Below are positions 5,122-24,052 of a DNA stretch of 35,657 nucleotides, one piece after another. Position 1 is the first letter of the stretch; every line of letters begins with the position of its first letter. Source of the stretch: an uncultured Clostridia bacterium (lineage in GTDB: Bacteria > Bacillota > Clostridia > Christensenellales > Borkfalkiaceae); the NCBI GenBank assembly GCA_944328495.1, contig CALVHR010000051.1:1-35657 (forward strand), read 5' to 3'. The notes beneath the pieces were generated by a model, which did no database searches, had not been told where the DNA came from, and saw only the letters and a list, made by a program, of their open reading frames with translations. The position numbers were made by a program, and so were the translations under genes.

Positions 5122-5583
5122 TTATTTTTTGCCTTCTTCTCCAAACGGGTCTATATACTCTTTCATTGTCATTTGTTCTGTCGCTTGGTCTTCTTGCAAC
5201 TGATTTTGTATATATTCCGCTATCTTCTTTTCATTTCGCCCTACCGTACTTACATAGTATCCTTTGCACCAGAAATGCCTGTTCCCGTACTTATATTTTA
5301 AGTTCGCAAACTTGTCGAATATCATTAAACTGCTTTTTCCTTTCAGATATCCCATCACTTGTGCTATACTATATTTTGGCGGTATTATTAGCAACATATG
5401 GATATGATCCGGACACGCATTTGCTTCCAAAATTTCTATCCCTTTATATTCACATAACTTACGCAGTATCTTTCCGATTTCACTTTTAATTTTTCCATAG
5501 ATTACCTGCCTTCGAAATTTTGGAGCAAATACTACATGATACTTGCATTCATACTTGCAATGTGCTAAACTTAATTCACTCAT
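5122..5583 (-). CDS. tnpA: IS200-type HUH transposase TnpA
   Basis: This 153-aa single-strand DNA transposase of the Y1 HUH class has the metal-binding His-x-His motif (PDHIHMLL, H60 and H62) and the catalytic tyrosine Y124 in the helix KKIAEYIQNQ. It also shows the family pattern HVVFAPKFRRQVI near the N-terminus and FWCKGYYVSTVG before the catalytic helix. Length is normal, so the gene appears intact. I chose the ATG at 5583 because AGGAGG lies eight bases upstream. The longer frame would run through the leader. Expression is probably weak, since the leader can fold and a CCTCC sequence upstream could mask the ribosome site if included in the transcript. Confidence 0.93.
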   Translation of the reverse strand: MSELSLAHCKYECKYHVVFAPKFRRQVIYGKIKSEIGKILRKLCEYKGIEILEANACPDHIHMLLIIPPKYSIAQVMGYLKGKSSLMIFDKFANLKYKYGNRHFWCKGYYVSTVGRNEKKIAEYIQNQLQEDQATEQMTMKEYIDPFGEEGKK

Positions 5584-5629
5584 CTTTGAGTCCTCCTTTG
5601 ATTTTTGTTTGCGGTTGGTAGCCACTTAC

Positions 5630-11294: not shown

Positions 11295-12131
11295 TTATTT
11301 TGCGTTCTGCTTGATTTTAACAAGCGCAGCATACGGCTTAATGAGCGACTTATCGATCAGCTCTTCATCAGTTTGATAAGGATAATGAAAATCCGTAAAA
11401 ATACATCCGACGTTCACAAGGCCGAATTTTCGCGCCAGTTCGTCCAAAAGCTCTTTTGCCTGCTTCAGCGTACGGCTGCCCGTTATCTTTACGCGCATAG
11501 GTGTTTCATGATGAGACCGCTTTTCTGATACATCTTCAAAACGATACTTTGATTCCTCAAACTCCTGCGGCGAAAGCGCCAAATACAGAGACAGAGTTTT
11601 TCCCGTGATGCTTAACTTCGCAATTTTTGTTCTTCCCACCCGAAAATTTTCAGATGCCACACATTGACGCGATTTCACTCCGCTATAACCGAGAATCGCG
11701 TTCTTGATTTGGGTATAAATATCCTGTATCTTTTCGTTTTGGATTAACTTGGACCGAAAGGACCTACGCAGACGCACTACACTTATATATCCGACAGGGA
11801 TACCGCTTAAATTCTCTCTCGCGATCTCCTCTCCCGCCTGTTCCGCAATCACGCTTGAAGTTTCTTTTTCACTTTCCCGTGCAATTGTTTCATCCGGCGC
11901 ATATTCATCAATGTCTTCAGAAAGCTCATTCAGAGCGCTTTCCATCCTTTCACGCAGCTGTGCCTTTGCACAAGGATATTTTTCCGCCTTTACACAATAT
12001 TTGCACCATGTCATGGTTCCGCACAAATCATATCCGGCACGCTCGCTCGCAATCCATTTTTCTACATCCAAAATATGCTGTTTTTCTTCAAATTCCGCCT
12101 GCGATATACCCGATAAATTTCTGTTTTTCAT
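11295..12131 (-). CDS. Unknown protein with a domain shared with the membrane protein at 21353-22816
   Basis: I do not recognise a named family. The 278-aa protein has no membrane segment. Residues 37-54 hold a cysteine cluster (C37, C43, C46, C54; CGTMTWCKYC) that could bind zinc. A charged acidic stretch follows (60-105), and then a domain at about 121-228 with landmarks RRSF, GVKxR, FRVGR, FEDVSEK and KITGSR. The same landmarks in the same order occur at residues 194-311 of the protein at 21353-22816. By eye about four in ten positions are identical. The start is chosen from AAGGAAG seven bases before the ATG, and a TATAAT promoter lies at 12189-12217. It is also the last gene downstream of EFR1 and the alarmone synthetase. 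Confidence 0.75.
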   Translation of the reverse strand: MKNRNLSGISQAEFEEKQHILDVEKWIASERAGYDLCGTMTWCKYCVKAEKYPCAKAQLRERMESALNELSEDIDEYAPDETIARESEKETSSVIAEQAGEEIARENLSGIPVGYISVVRLRRSFRSKLIQNEKIQDIYTQIKNAILGYSGVKSRQCVASENFRVGRTKIAKLSITGKTLSLYLALSPQEFEESKYRFEDVSEKRSHHETPMRVKITGSRTLKQAKELLDELARKFGLVNVGCIFTDFHYPYQTDEELIDKSLIKPYAALVKIKQNAK

Positions 12132-12188
12132 CTTGTTTCTTCCTTTTGAAATCGTTGCATTTGCCCGGTCCCGCATAGTTTCATTTAT

Positions 12189-12217
12189 ATTATAATTCAA
12201 TCTGCCTGCAAAAGCAA
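12189..12217 (-). promoter_or_regulatory. Putative promoter of the unknown gene at 11295-12131
   Basis: The minus strand carries TTGCTT (12212-12217), a 17-nt spacer and TATAAT (12189-12194), in the 120-base gap after the alarmone synthetase gene. Confidence 0.65.
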
Positions 12218-12251
12218 GCATCACCAAAGAACTTTCAATAAAAAACTGAAA

Positions 12252-12935
12252 TTACAACTCACTTTCCAACTTTTCGATCCGCTTTCGAATGCCCTGCATG
12301 CGCGCATCCGTCGCCGCAATGACTTCGGCACAACTTTTTAATTCTGCCGCTATATCCGGACGATCGGCCGCGCTTTTTTTATATTTCATCTGGTGTTCAA
12401 GGCTTGCCCAAAAATCCATCGCCACTGTCCGTATCTGAATTTCAACGCGCGTGACTTGTTTGCTGTCCGAAAAGAAAACCGGTACCTCGACAATCATATG
12501 ATAGCTGCGATACCCATTCAATTTCGGCTTACGAATATAATCTTTTATCTCGATCACCGTAATATCGTCCTGCTGTGCAAGCATATCCGCTACGCGGTAA
12601 ATATCATCTATAAACGAACAAATCACACGAATGCCCGCAACATCGTTTAAATTTTCCTTGACCGAATCGACCGTAAGCGGATTCCCTTGCCTCGCAAGTT
12701 TCTCAACAATACTTTCGGGAGATTTTATCCTGGAACTTATACTTTCGATCGGATTGCGGCTTGTACGAAAAGACAACTCTTCGTTTAAAACCTCAAACTT
12801 CGTTCGAACTTCGCGGATCGCGCAATCATAGCGAACCATTAATTCCCGAAATTTTTTCAGGTTTTTCAATGCTCCCCCTGCGCCGCCGGATAAAAATTCA
12901 TTGATTAATTCTTCCTTTTGCTTACTCTTTTCCAT
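12252..12935 (-). CDS. Small alarmone synthetase, RelQ/SAS1-like (p)ppGpp synthetase
   Basis: The 227-aa protein consists of a single RelA/SpoT synthetase domain, without hydrolase or regulatory domains. It transfers pyrophosphate from ATP to GDP or GTP. Visible motifs are the SRIKSPESIVEKL substrate region near residues 67-79, DVAGIRVIC, KPKLNGYRSYH (GYRSxH) and VEIQIRT followed by FWASLEHQMKYK. A coiled C-terminal helix fits the RelQ tetramer. GAAGGA lies before the ATG. It lies 28 bases downstream of the EFR1 gene and is probably cotranscribed with it, an arrangement that could couple the stringent response to redox stress, although that is inference. Confidence 0.93.
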   Translation of the reverse strand: MEKSKQKEELINEFLSGGAGGALKNLKKFRELMVRYDCAIREVRTKFEVLNEELSFRTSRNPIESISSRIKSPESIVEKLARQGNPLTVDSVKENLNDVAGIRVICSFIDDIYRVADMLAQQDDITVIEIKDYIRKPKLNGYRSYHMIVEVPVFFSDSKQVTRVEIQIRTVAMDFWASLEHQMKYKKSAADRPDIAAELKSCAEVIAATDARMQGIRKRIEKLESEL

Positions 12936-21295: not shown

Positions 21296-21326
21296 GGCGG
21301 GAGTGTCTTCGACACTCCCGCCTTTA
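21296..21326 (-). terminator. Hairpin after the multidomain membrane protein gene
   Basis: GGCGGGAGTGTC (21296-21307) pairs perfectly with GACACTCCCGCC (21311-21322) around TTC. It lies about 30 bases past the stop codon. The T-tract on the minus strand (CTTGCTTG) is poor. Confidence 0.6.
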
Positions 21327-21352: not shown

Positions 21353-22816
21353 TCAATTCTTTTTCAGCTTGATTACTTTTCCGCCTGTAAGCACAATCAT
21401 TTTGACTGCGGGCAACGAAAAATCGGTTGCCTCGACGATCAGTGATTTATCTAGCATCCCACGCGCCAAAACTTTGCATGCCACTGACTTTTTATCGATC
21501 AGCCCCTTAGCTTTAAGTGACTCCAATGACACAGTTTCGCCTTCACGGTAATTTGCCGAAATCGTATCAAGATTAATGTAAGTGCGCTTCCCTGCAACGC
21601 GTCCGCCCTTACCGTCTTCGCGCGTCTCTGCCAAAGCAATGAGCTGTTTTGCCGTGTCATCGCTCAGCAACTTGTCCGCTTCGCCGATGGATACTTTATC
21701 TGTTACGGTATAAGCGGATAGTTTTTCAACCTTCGCCCCTTCGGCGATCATTTCCTCCACTTCTTCTGCCGTAACCGTTTCGCCGGTATCGCGCTTTGCG
21801 TATACTTTGATCAGTTTGCGGCGAATGAGCGTTTCGCGATCCTCATACGGAATTTCTTGCGTATCATCGACGCGCTTAAAATCTAAACCGAATTCGCGCG
21901 CCGCCTGTTCGAGCAACTCACAAGCATATTTGAAACTGCGGCTGCCCGTGATTTTATAACGTACAGGGACGTTTGCATAACGCTTCTTTTCGCTAACATC
22001 GCGGAAATTGTATTTTTCATCTATGCCGGCAGGATCGAGAGCAAAATAGATGATCAAGCTCTTTGTATTTGCATTAATTTTAGCAAACTGTTTCCTCCCC
22101 ACATTGAAAGAGTCATATTTCCAGCTTACCCTCTCCTTAACTCCGATCTGCGACAAAAGCTCATTGCGGACCCGATTGTATAAATCCTTGATCTCATCGG
22201 CAGACTGAATCAACCGTGCCGTAAAACTCCGACGGTACTGCACAAAAACCTTGCTGCCTGTAACCGTTGTGACGATCGCACCTTCAATTTCATCCCCTTC
22301 TTCCGCTTCGCCCTCTTCTTCCTCCTCTGTTTCGGGCAAATTTTCTTCATAGGCCGGCGTTTGCGCATCCGCCGTTTCAGCTATTTCAGGAATCTTTTCT
22401 TCCTCGACAGCCATCGGTACGCTTTCTTCGTTCCCCTTTTGCTTGGAAACGTTTTCTTCTGTCAATGCATCCGCTTTTAGCCATTTGGCATACAAAGATG
22501 CCCCGCTCATAGGCATGCGATAAACGCCTTCTATTCGCACGGTATAATTTTTATCGGTATACCAACCGTCAAAAACAAATCCCTGCCGAGGCTCCGGAGC
22601 TTGCAACCGAACAGCTTTAAAGCCCGGATATTTCCGCACAATAAATTCATCTTCCTGTATATACAGTTTCAATTTAAAGGGGGTAAACAGCAACACCAGA
22701 AGAATTATGATCGCCAACAATGCGGCAACGGCAATGCAAAGATACGCTATCATACGGGGCGAATCTTTCAGCTGCGAAAAAAAGTCTGCAACACTCATAA
22801 TAATTTGTAAAGCCAT
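21353..22816 (-). CDS. Membrane protein with InlB-like repeat, new paralogous domain and uL15-like C-terminus
   Basis: The 487-aa protein has an unusual build. A single transmembrane segment lies at about 21-45. Residues 50-112 look like a Listeria-Bacteroides (InlB B-type, Flg_new) repeat, with FDGWYTD and LYAKW. Residues 115-180 are an acidic low-complexity linker. Residues 190-345 are a domain shared with the protein at 11295-12131 (RRSF, GVKER, FNVGR, FRDVSEK, KITGSR). Residues 411-485 resemble the C-terminal half of ribosomal protein uL15 (YINLDTI, SLESLKAKGLIDKK, VKMIVLTGGKVIKL). The start follows AGGAGGTGA and a clear promoter. It is monocistronic. I cannot name a function. Which side of the membrane the C-terminus faces is undecided. 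Confidence 0.8.
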   Translation of the reverse strand: MALQIIMSVADFFSQLKDSPRMIAYLCIAVAALLAIIILLVLLFTPFKLKLYIQEDEFIVRKYPGFKAVRLQAPEPRQGFVFDGWYTDKNYTVRIEGVYRMPMSGASLYAKWLKADALTEENVSKQKGNEESVPMAVEEEKIPEIAETADAQTPAYEENLPETEEEEEGEAEEGDEIEGAIVTTVTGSKVFVQYRRSFTARLIQSADEIKDLYNRVRNELLSQIGVKERVSWKYDSFNVGRKQFAKINANTKSLIIYFALDPAGIDEKYNFRDVSEKKRYANVPVRYKITGSRSFKYACELLEQAAREFGLDFKRVDDTQEIPYEDRETLIRRKLIKVYAKRDTGETVTAEEVEEMIAEGAKVEKLSAYTVTDKVSIGEADKLLSDDTAKQLIALAETREDGKGGRVAGKRTYINLDTISANYREGETVSLESLKAKGLIDKKSVACKVLARGMLDKSLIVEATDFSLPAVKMIVLTGGKVIKLKKN

Positions 22817-22847
22817 GACACTCACCTCCTGTTTGGAAAGTAGGAAT

Positions 22848-22876
22848 ATTATACCACCTATACTCTCACTTTGCAA
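22848..22876 (-). promoter_or_regulatory. Promoter of the multidomain membrane protein gene
   Basis: The minus strand carries TTGCAA (22871-22876), a 17-nt spacer and TATAAT (22848-22853). Confidence 0.75.
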
Positions 22877-22954: not shown

Positions 22955-24052
22955 TTACCCGTGATTTCCGATCGCTTCTTGAAGGACATTATACAATTCC
23001 TTTTCGTTAAAAAATGCCGCACAGTTGTGAATATTTCTGTTTTGAGCCGCACGATGTGCGTAGTCATGAAGCTCCGTATCGGTAAAATGTTCTTTTTCCC
23101 CCAACAGCGCAGATATTTTTTTGGAAAAGTCTGCGATTCCCATCCCGAGCGCCGCACTGATATTGGAAATTATCGCAGGGATCTTTTCTGCGCACTTATG
23201 CAAAAAAGCAGGCAGAAGCAACCCGTTTGCGCGCCCGTGAGGAATATTTCGAAAATAAGTAAGAGAATATCCCATTCCATGTACGGGCGTTGTCCCCGTA
23301 CCGGCAATGACCATTCCCGCAACGGAAGCTCCGACCAACAAGTTCTGCCTCGACTCGGCAGAATACTTCCCGGACGAAAGCGACGCGTATTCCCCCATAA
23401 GAATTTTCAGCGCTTCTTTCGCCAAAGCATCGGTAATCGGGTTTGCCCTGACAGACAGCATCCCTTCCACCGCATGAGAAATCGCATCGATTGCGGTATT
23501 CACTGTAACGGATTGGGGAAGGTCGCGCATATATTTCCCGTCGAGAAAAGCGATCTTCGGAAATAAGAAAGGCGCCGATATGCTCATTTTTGTTTTTTGC
23601 CGATCGTTTGTCAGCACCGAATATTGCGTAACTTCACTGCCCGTTCCCGCCGTCGTGGGAATATGAATCATCGGCAATACATCCTCTGAAATAGAATGGG
23701 AAAAGATATCTTCCGCATCTTGCCGCGCGAGCATTGCTATCGCCTTTGCCGCATCCATCGGTGAACCGCCGCCAATCGCCACTACAAAATCAGCACCGAA
23801 ACTGCGGGCGAGGGCCGCACCTTCTCGAACACTTTGCGCGCTCGGATTGGAAGATATTCCGTCAAACACTTTATAGGTTTTCCCGAGTTGATGCATAACA
23901 CACGCCACATCCGAGAGCGCCCCGTTTTTTTCTGAACTCTTTCCCGTTACAATCAAAGCACGTTTCCCGAACGGATCGAAAACATTCGCATTTCTTAAAA
24001 CGCAATCGGCACCGCTGATCACTCGAACAGGCATATAATACGAAAATTCCAT
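22955..24052 (-). CDS. Iron-containing alcohol dehydrogenase
   Basis: The 365-aa group III dehydrogenase has a nucleotide-binding GGGSPMDAAKA motif (94-104) and PTTAGTGSE (132-140). Likely iron ligands are D189 and H193 (AIDAISHAVE), H258 (VHGMGYS) and H272 (PHGRANG). It would interconvert an alcohol and an aldehyde or ketone with NAD(P)H in fermentation. The substrate cannot be read from sequence. It is slightly shorter than the usual 380-390 residues. GAGG precedes the ATG. A -10 box TATAAT lies 21 bases upstream, next to the terminator of the preceding gene cluster, suggesting a separate transcript. Confidence 0.93.
   Translation of the reverse strand: MEFSYYMPVRVISGADCVLRNANVFDPFGKRALIVTGKSSEKNGALSDVACVMHQLGKTYKVFDGISSNPSAQSVREGAALARSFGADFVVAIGGGSPMDAAKAIAMLARQDAEDIFSHSISEDVLPMIHIPTTAGTGSEVTQYSVLTNDRQKTKMSISAPFLFPKIAFLDGKYMRDLPQSVTVNTAIDAISHAVEGMLSVRANPITDALAKEALKILMGEYASLSSGKYSAESRQNLLVGASVAGMVIAGTGTTPVHGMGYSLTYFRNIPHGRANGLLLPAFLHKCAEKIPAIISNISAALGMGIADFSKKISALLGEKEHFTDTELHDYAHRAAQNRNIHNCAAFFNEKELYNVLQEAIGNHG

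Follow-up and report, generated by a model that had tools for sequence, protein, structure and literature searches.

A membrane-anchored Clostridia protein combining a putative DUF5655 relative with a uL15-like module

InlB-type repeats are normally extracellular. How, then, can one of them share a polypeptide, behind a single membrane helix, with parts that look cytoplasmic, and what might such a protein do? The question is raised by a gene in a 35,657-nucleotide contig of an uncultured Clostridia bacterium of the Borkfalkiaceae (order Christensenellales, meant below by "the order"), the whole of which was analysed and is termed the window here. A preliminary description made from the letters of the window proposed that two of its genes share a new-looking domain, here called X, and that one copy is fused to an InlB-like repeat and a membrane anchor with a puzzling topology. 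It also took the two paralogs as a sign of an expanded family in this lineage. We refer to the fused copy (copy 2) as the window protein and to loci carrying related genes by L numbers.

The window protein and its surroundings

The extent 21353..22816 given in the preliminary description is correct when taken on the minus strand, where it encodes a protein that runs from a transmembrane helix through an InlB-B-type repeat, an acidic linker, domain X and a bridge to a uL15-like module (Table 1). This anatomy is well supported. The hydrophobic stretch and the acidic linker had been recognised and stand, the linker with a pI of 4.05 over residues 119-185. Support for the repeat is mixed, with 21.9 bits against TIGR02543 (cut-off 20.95) and 23.1 bits against Pfam Flg_new (PF09479), which is under the cut-off of 27. 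The earlier inventory of parts was also incomplete, as residues 414-482 match PF00828 (uL15/L18e/L27A) at 41.5 bits against a cut-off of 21.5. X and the uL15-like module are confidently placed in the full-length model, while the InlB region and the linker mostly have pLDDT below 50, so that the model, of low confidence there, does not confirm the fold of the repeat. X (pI 9.7) and the uL15-like module (pI 9.9) are both basic.

Table 1. Features of the window protein gene and of copy 1
Feature	Positions	Strand	Residues	Basis or remark
Gene P0001	21353..22816	minus		ATG 22816, stop 21355-21353, 487 aa
Sigma-70-like promoter TTGCAA-17-TATAAT	22848..22876	minus		10/12 matches; consensus match alone
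Ribosome-binding site AGGAGG	22825..22830	minus		8 bases 5' of ATG, read from sequence
Transmembrane helix core	22679..22753	minus	about 22-46	single helix; hydrophobic stretch 18-54, model helix 20-52
InlB B-type (List_Bact_rpt) repeat	22481..22606	minus	71-112	TIGR02543 over cut-off, Pfam Flg_new under
Acidic linker	22283..22468	minus	117-178	low pI; residues 125-175 pLDDT <50
Domain X	21782..22264	minus	185-345	putatively DUF5655-related, predicted YjbR-like fold
Bridge between X and uL15 module	21593..21781	minus	346-408	aligned with L130 and G296; pLDDT of most blocks 56-85
uL15-like C-terminal module	21356..21592	minus	409-487	PF00828 and Foldseek of full-length model
G+C-rich hairpin, 12 pairs	21296..21322	minus		3' of stop, without T run
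Copy 1 gene	11295-12227	minus		start most likely ATG 12131
Domain X of copy 1	11328..11780	minus		BLASTP alignment with copy 2

Among the X frames examined, that is, open frames carrying X, only L041 (same genus) and L130 have an InlB repeat in front of X besides the window protein. The L130 repeat reaches 32.2 bits in Pfam, above the cut-off, and also exceeds that of TIGR02543. The X domain of L130 is 78% identical to that of the window protein, with a dN of 0.16 and a dS of 2.7 that is near saturation and makes the ratio rough. For the same pair dN is 0.23 in the uL15 module, 0.50 in the repeat and 0.74 in the linker, three parts for which dS was not measurable; X and the uL15 module are thus the slowly evolving parts, and the repeat and the linker the faster ones.

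A longer start candidate, TTG, is itself the first codon of the -35 hexamer TTGCAA. Given this promoter-like site and the AGGAGG before the ATG, the gene can be its own single-gene unit; the hairpin behind the stop is absent from the terminator scan output. An Fe-ADH-like gene lies upstream (22955-24052, minus strand), and L130 (282-1550) and L041 (14304-15422) each have an Fe-ADH-like relative directly upstream of their X gene, so the position behind the Fe-ADH-like gene is preserved among these close relatives. A conserved operon around the window gene was considered and rejected, as no arrangement is common to all 14 loci displayed. Elsewhere in the window, the stretch 5122-5625 (minus strand) resembles what we take to be an IS200/IS605-type transposase, TnpA.

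The common domain of the two window genes, as previously proposed, is real. BLASTP aligns them with 38% identity over 208 aa (E=3e-34), and a whole-genome search with the window protein as lone query retrieves copy 1 at 6.7e-32. A proper profile comparison, which the preliminary description had named as the refuting test, was run and the significance did not vanish; the X profile scores the two window copies at 1.5e-54 and 1.9e-53, values for domains that are themselves rows of that profile. A recent tandem duplication is ruled out, each copy pairing in the tree with its own same-genus ortholog. Copy 1 (11298-12131 from its likely start) adjoins a RelA/SpoT-type synthetase gene (12252-12935, PF04607) and carries an N-terminal four-cysteine motif, C-x6-C-x2-C-x7-C, that is kept in the same-genus ortholog L041:7099-8130.

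Kinship of domain X and of the C-terminal module

Domain X was compared with known families by structure and by profile. Two alignments were built, one (A1) from 24 of 30 locus domains and the other (A3) from 76 of 81, each with the two window domains added; A3 thus holds 78 domains, five short or cut ones being left out. The AlphaFold2 model of X from the 78-domain alignment has a mean pLDDT of 96 and a pTM of 0.88. Its best Foldseek match in the PDB is E. coli YjbR (2fki, probability 1.00, E=0.011), followed by Bacillus YdhG of the DUF1801 family (2oc6, probability 0.77, E=0.16), and a Listeria YdhG-like protein is also among the matches; none of the PDB matches reaches E<=0.001. Searching PDB sequences with X returned a single chain, a Pyrin at chance level (E 0.57). 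PMC7641849 assigns the YjbR type to the double-wing folds that bind DNA.

The matches to YdhG raise the alternative that X is an iron chaperone like frataxin, as proposed for Bacillus subtilis YdhG, which PMC10855754 links with Fe-S assembly. The same source describes frataxin as binding iron through acidic residues, whereas X is basic (median pI 9.48 over 130 domains, range 6.6-10.2; 9.7 here), a value for the charge of the whole domain and not a map of its surface. On charge we regard such a role as highly improbable.

A Pfam scan of 26 X members yielded weak hits only, spread over 19 families, with DUF5655 in two members (best 0.0019), YjbR at 0.12 and DUF1801 at 0.13. Such matches prove nothing alone because they include unrelated families such as NPL4, which also appears in two of the 26 (best 0.0095). 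Against the DUF5655 cut-off of 24 bits, copy 1 scores 17.6 and copy 2 gives no listed match. In the profile-to-profile alignment, hhalign pairs X with DUF5655 (PF18899) over 113 columns at 97.9% (E=5.3e-13), as against 0.3% for a reversed profile and at most 1.4% for 100 column shuffles; the six rows of the DUF5655 alignment A4 (L149 and L150, with L157, L158, L160 and L162 from the 14 DUF5655 loci mentioned below) were picked because the X profile found them.

When 391 genomes of the class were searched with the X profile, nine matched at 1e-5, seven of them inside the order. The two outside it encode proteins with DUF5655 over the Pfam cut-off (X profile E 1.9e-8 and 9.7e-8), whose N-termini resemble NucS_C and HSDR_N, both under their Pfam cut-offs. 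Run on 14 DUF5655 loci in small per-locus searches, the X profile found four at E<=1e-4 and seven under 0.01 and missed the other seven; the kinship is therefore to part of DUF5655. From these comparisons of profiles and of a predicted structure, we take X to be a divergent DUF5655 relative with a YjbR-like fold, and no fold of its own. The idea of a new domain thus gives way to one with relatives, in DUF5655 by profile and, at weak E-values, in YjbR and YdhG by fold.

The C-terminal module resembles the C-terminal half of uL15, an RNA-bound ribosomal protein. Among the Foldseek hits of the full-length model are chains from ribosome entries (listed without chain names), the best at E 1.8e-5. 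The sole other PF00828 match in the genome of the window is a uL15 frame on contig C6 that has the N-terminal half, its own rplO. Could the module then act as a membrane receptor for ribosomes that still binds 50S subunits or assembly intermediates in or around the uL15 site and favours co-translational export of surface proteins? Its recognition both by sequence and by fold, its 34% identity over 68 aa with the rplO of the same genome (E=4e-5 when the two are compared singly) and the ties of X proteins to secreted proteins and signal peptidase, set out below, speak for this reading. The N-terminal half of uL15 is missing, however, and the full-length equivalog TIGR01071 reaches only 34.3 bits against a cut-off of 77.95, covering positions 73-143 of 144; in addition, a longer rplO exists elsewhere in the same genome. 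We consider a receptor of this kind unlikely.

Distribution, orientation and shared tails

Of 297 genomes sampled from the order, 129 have a match to a single X sequence at 1e-5; they represent 42 of 125 genera, and one genome has as many as 10 matches. In the window's own genome, which is 91% complete, single-sequence and profile searches returned no X copies beyond the two in the window. The proposed expansion of the family in the lineage therefore holds at the level of the order and not for the genome itself. Of the 188 confirmed stretches, the 80 listed come for the most part from metagenome-assembled Clostridia, often from animal gut by title; the named ones among the matches listed include Pumilibacter intestinalis and Candidatus Coproplasma. 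Carriage of X by mobile elements was rejected, with zero matches in 50,697 phage and 72,556 plasmid records. The only viral contig with X, IMGVR_UViG_3300032007_003637 (L180), has one that is 43% identical and that may be host sequence near the contig end.

The architecture of X proteins was surveyed in 99 non-redundant X frames, eight of them cut by the end of the locus and one a fragment, with the two window genes excluded. As the loci were fetched through X itself, they are a sample of X proteins and not of genomes. By custom profiles built from few seeds, 37 frames carry the uL15 module, 12 another C-terminal module and 50 neither, and in none do both occur. Tandem X domains are found as pairs in 22 of the 99 frames and as triplets in two. 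The alternative module (VVGVMFRRRGRKVYWFDPDG...), which takes the place of uL15 for example in L063:9587-11395 and L051:6607-8064, was considered as a candidate PSP1; a Pfam scan of two members gave neither PSP1 nor any other match. A separate sample of the order, counted by hand and irrespective of whether the second match is fused to X, has at least two PF00828 matches in 27 of 151 genomes. One X protein, L056:6012-8516, shows no helix in the scan and has two X domains after a long N-terminal region; this region is, to our eye, reminiscent of DUF2357, a resemblance that comes without a Pfam match.

The puzzle of topology is best approached through these relatives. In 77 of 90 proteins lysine and arginine are more numerous behind the last helix before X than in front of it (fewer in 11 and equal in two), with totals of 268 behind against 104 before. 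Four relatives (L043, L048, L049 and L106), from which the uL15 module is absent, begin with a signal-peptide-like start and a long ectodomain, followed by a single helix and then X. In L092 the closing helix of a signal peptidase leads on into X and a uL15 module within one protein. Signal peptidases of the SipW-like kind usually have their catalytic part outside, which for L092 places the X-uL15 tail inside. In uL15-tailed giants (L089 and the G141 proteins described below), two strong hydrophobic stretches with a short hydrophobic segment between them precede X, and their topology is less clear for this reason.

From the family comparison, X, the uL15 module and the InlB-like repeat of the window protein probably face the cytoplasm; with a single helix in the protein, a cytoplasmic X implies a cytoplasmic repeat. 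The charge counts, L092 and the four proteins with ectodomains thus supply a likely answer to the puzzle, while the window protein's own signal is slight (two lysine or arginine residues behind the helix, one before). The reverse topology would put the N-terminus inside and expose the repeat, X and the uL15 module as in an ordinary surface protein. The usual location of InlB-type repeats, the nearly even flanking charges of the window protein and the 11 of 90 relatives with fewer lysine and arginine residues behind the helix all lean that way. Set against the four relatives that place X after an ectodomain and one helix, the SipW-like peptidase whose closing helix precedes X in L092 and the positive-inside counts of 77 proteins, this arrangement is very unlikely.

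A set of shared tails occurs in one genome, G141, which has 14 PF00828 matches and 12 X matches. One PF00828 match, in a 169-aa frame, looks like rplO, leaving 13 besides. Five giants (L167-L171), whose open frames span 1700 to 2533 aa and of which one is cut by a contig end, are closely alike in their last 300 residues (median identity 92%), whereas the region ahead of the first helix of the tail, compared over at most about 840 residues, has a median identity of 26%. Several further tail copies lie near contig ends, and the true number may be higher. A tail kept or homogenised over unrelated ectodomains suggests, as far as sequence comparison goes, a common cytoplasmic machinery.

Export is also touched by the gene neighbourhoods. 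Over all frames of 100 loci, six distinct stretches have a SipW-like signal peptidase gene immediately in front of an X gene (L054, L064, L093, L107, L122 and L088, the last being identical with the stretch of L053); Pumilibacter intestinalis has an X gene that adjoins such a gene. The fused peptidase of L092 scores 81.5 bits with TIGR02228 (cut-off 51.85) and 83.1 bits with the Bacillus SipW model NF046067, whose cut-off of 190 it does not reach, and the five peptidases scanned from the pairs (L054, L064, L088, L093 and L122) likewise lie over the first cut-off and under the second. Additional conserved genes accompany the pairs in L053/L088, L054 and L064 and partly in L093, L107 and L122. 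The peptidase search was made over all frames; the clustering of neighbours, before which three duplicate loci were removed, kept the longest frames that do not overlap and so missed some real genes, among which was, in 18 of 98 loci, the X gene. No signal peptidase gene lies beside the window gene, which is on contig C51; the TIGR02228 matches of its genome are on C23 (over the cut-off) and C49 (under it).

Possible roles and comparison with known systems

Our leading reading, which we hold with slightly less than even confidence, is that the window protein is a docking device anchored in the cytoplasmic membrane, with an arm on the inner face that binds nucleic acid or the ribosome. One helix, with the N-terminus outside and the C-terminus inside, would carry a cytoplasmic arm with the InlB-type repeat at the membrane, followed by an acidic leash, the basic X and the basic uL15-type module. 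X and the module would share a binding partner in the cytoplasm, nucleic acid or the ribosome being the likeliest, and would keep membrane and surface proteins close to that partner, with the acidic leash serving as both spacer and competitor. A tether that binds nucleic acid or ribosomes is favoured because X and the module are both basic, YjbR-type folds are described as DNA-binding and uL15 is bound to RNA. Against a docking arm stand the 50 of 99 X frames with neither C-terminal module, from which it follows that uL15 is not required for the role of X. The weak E-value of the YjbR match, the slight charge difference of the window protein, the 11 of 90 proteins with the opposite charge pattern, the usual extracellular place of InlB-type repeats, the less clear topology of the uL15-tailed giants and the distance of the signal peptidase genes from this gene also count against it. 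The domains, their kinship and the recurrence of the tail were computed; the ligand and the coupling of the arm we infer.

A protein-protein clustering scaffold accounts for much of the same evidence as a nucleic-acid or ribosome tether. Both folds would here have been co-opted for self-association or for a dedicated partner, with no part for nucleic acid or the ribosome. Tandem copies of X agree with this, as does the exchange of the uL15 module with another C-terminal module (37 against 12 frames), and near-identical tails on the unrelated ectodomains of G141 would suit any sort of common partner. Polyanions are favoured instead by the relatives of both folds and by the basic charge that X and the uL15 module carry, and we regard a scaffold as a serious possibility of less than even likelihood.

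If the docking reading is extended to the family, the window protein may exemplify an undescribed inside-tail cassette of one Clostridia order, in which part of a ribosomal protein joins a DUF5655/YjbR-type domain in an exchangeable cytoplasmic tail for surface proteins and a signal peptidase; the tail would physically couple the places of protein export and surface assembly to ribosomes, mRNA or the nucleoid, a proposal that we advance as possible but doubtful. Each part belongs to a known family or stands near one; literature searches of open-licence papers found neither their combination nor its repeated use as an inner tail. The same searches gave nothing relevant on DUF5655, on a 'uL15 family ribosomal protein' or on a membrane-anchored L15, and the literature searched names no function for the X-uL15 tail module. 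Were the tail to dock nucleic acid or ribosomes, surface display would be tied directly and physically to translation or the nucleoid by a device made partly from a ribosomal protein. Even without such docking, many membrane and surface proteins of a gut-associated Clostridia order end in this recurrent module.

X aligns by profile with DUF5655 and yet remains under its Pfam cut-off, and the DUF5655 members outside the order have NucS_C- or HSDR_N-like N-termini and no known membrane role. YjbR/MmcQ and YdhG/DUF1801 provide the best structural matches of X, but with the fold E-values given above and sequence matches of only about 0.1. Like InlB B-repeats (List_Bact_rpt), the repeat of the window protein exceeds the TIGR02543 cut-off; unlike them, it is a single copy, under the Pfam cut-off, beside a membrane helix and probably cytoplasmic. 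The X loci recall tapA-sipW-tasA systems in having a peptidase gene directly 5' of the X gene in six stretches and fused to it in L092, and in that L092 and the five tested peptidases exceed the TIGR02228 cut-off. They differ in that the same peptidases fall under the NF046067 cut-off, in that the window gene has no such neighbour and in that the accessible portion of PMC4551309 names no X protein for the Bacillus operon. With uL15 (rplO) itself the window protein shares a module that is over the Pfam cut-off in sequence and matches chains of ribosome entries in the model, but here the module lacks the N-terminal half, lies under the equivalog cut-off and is fused to a membrane protein.
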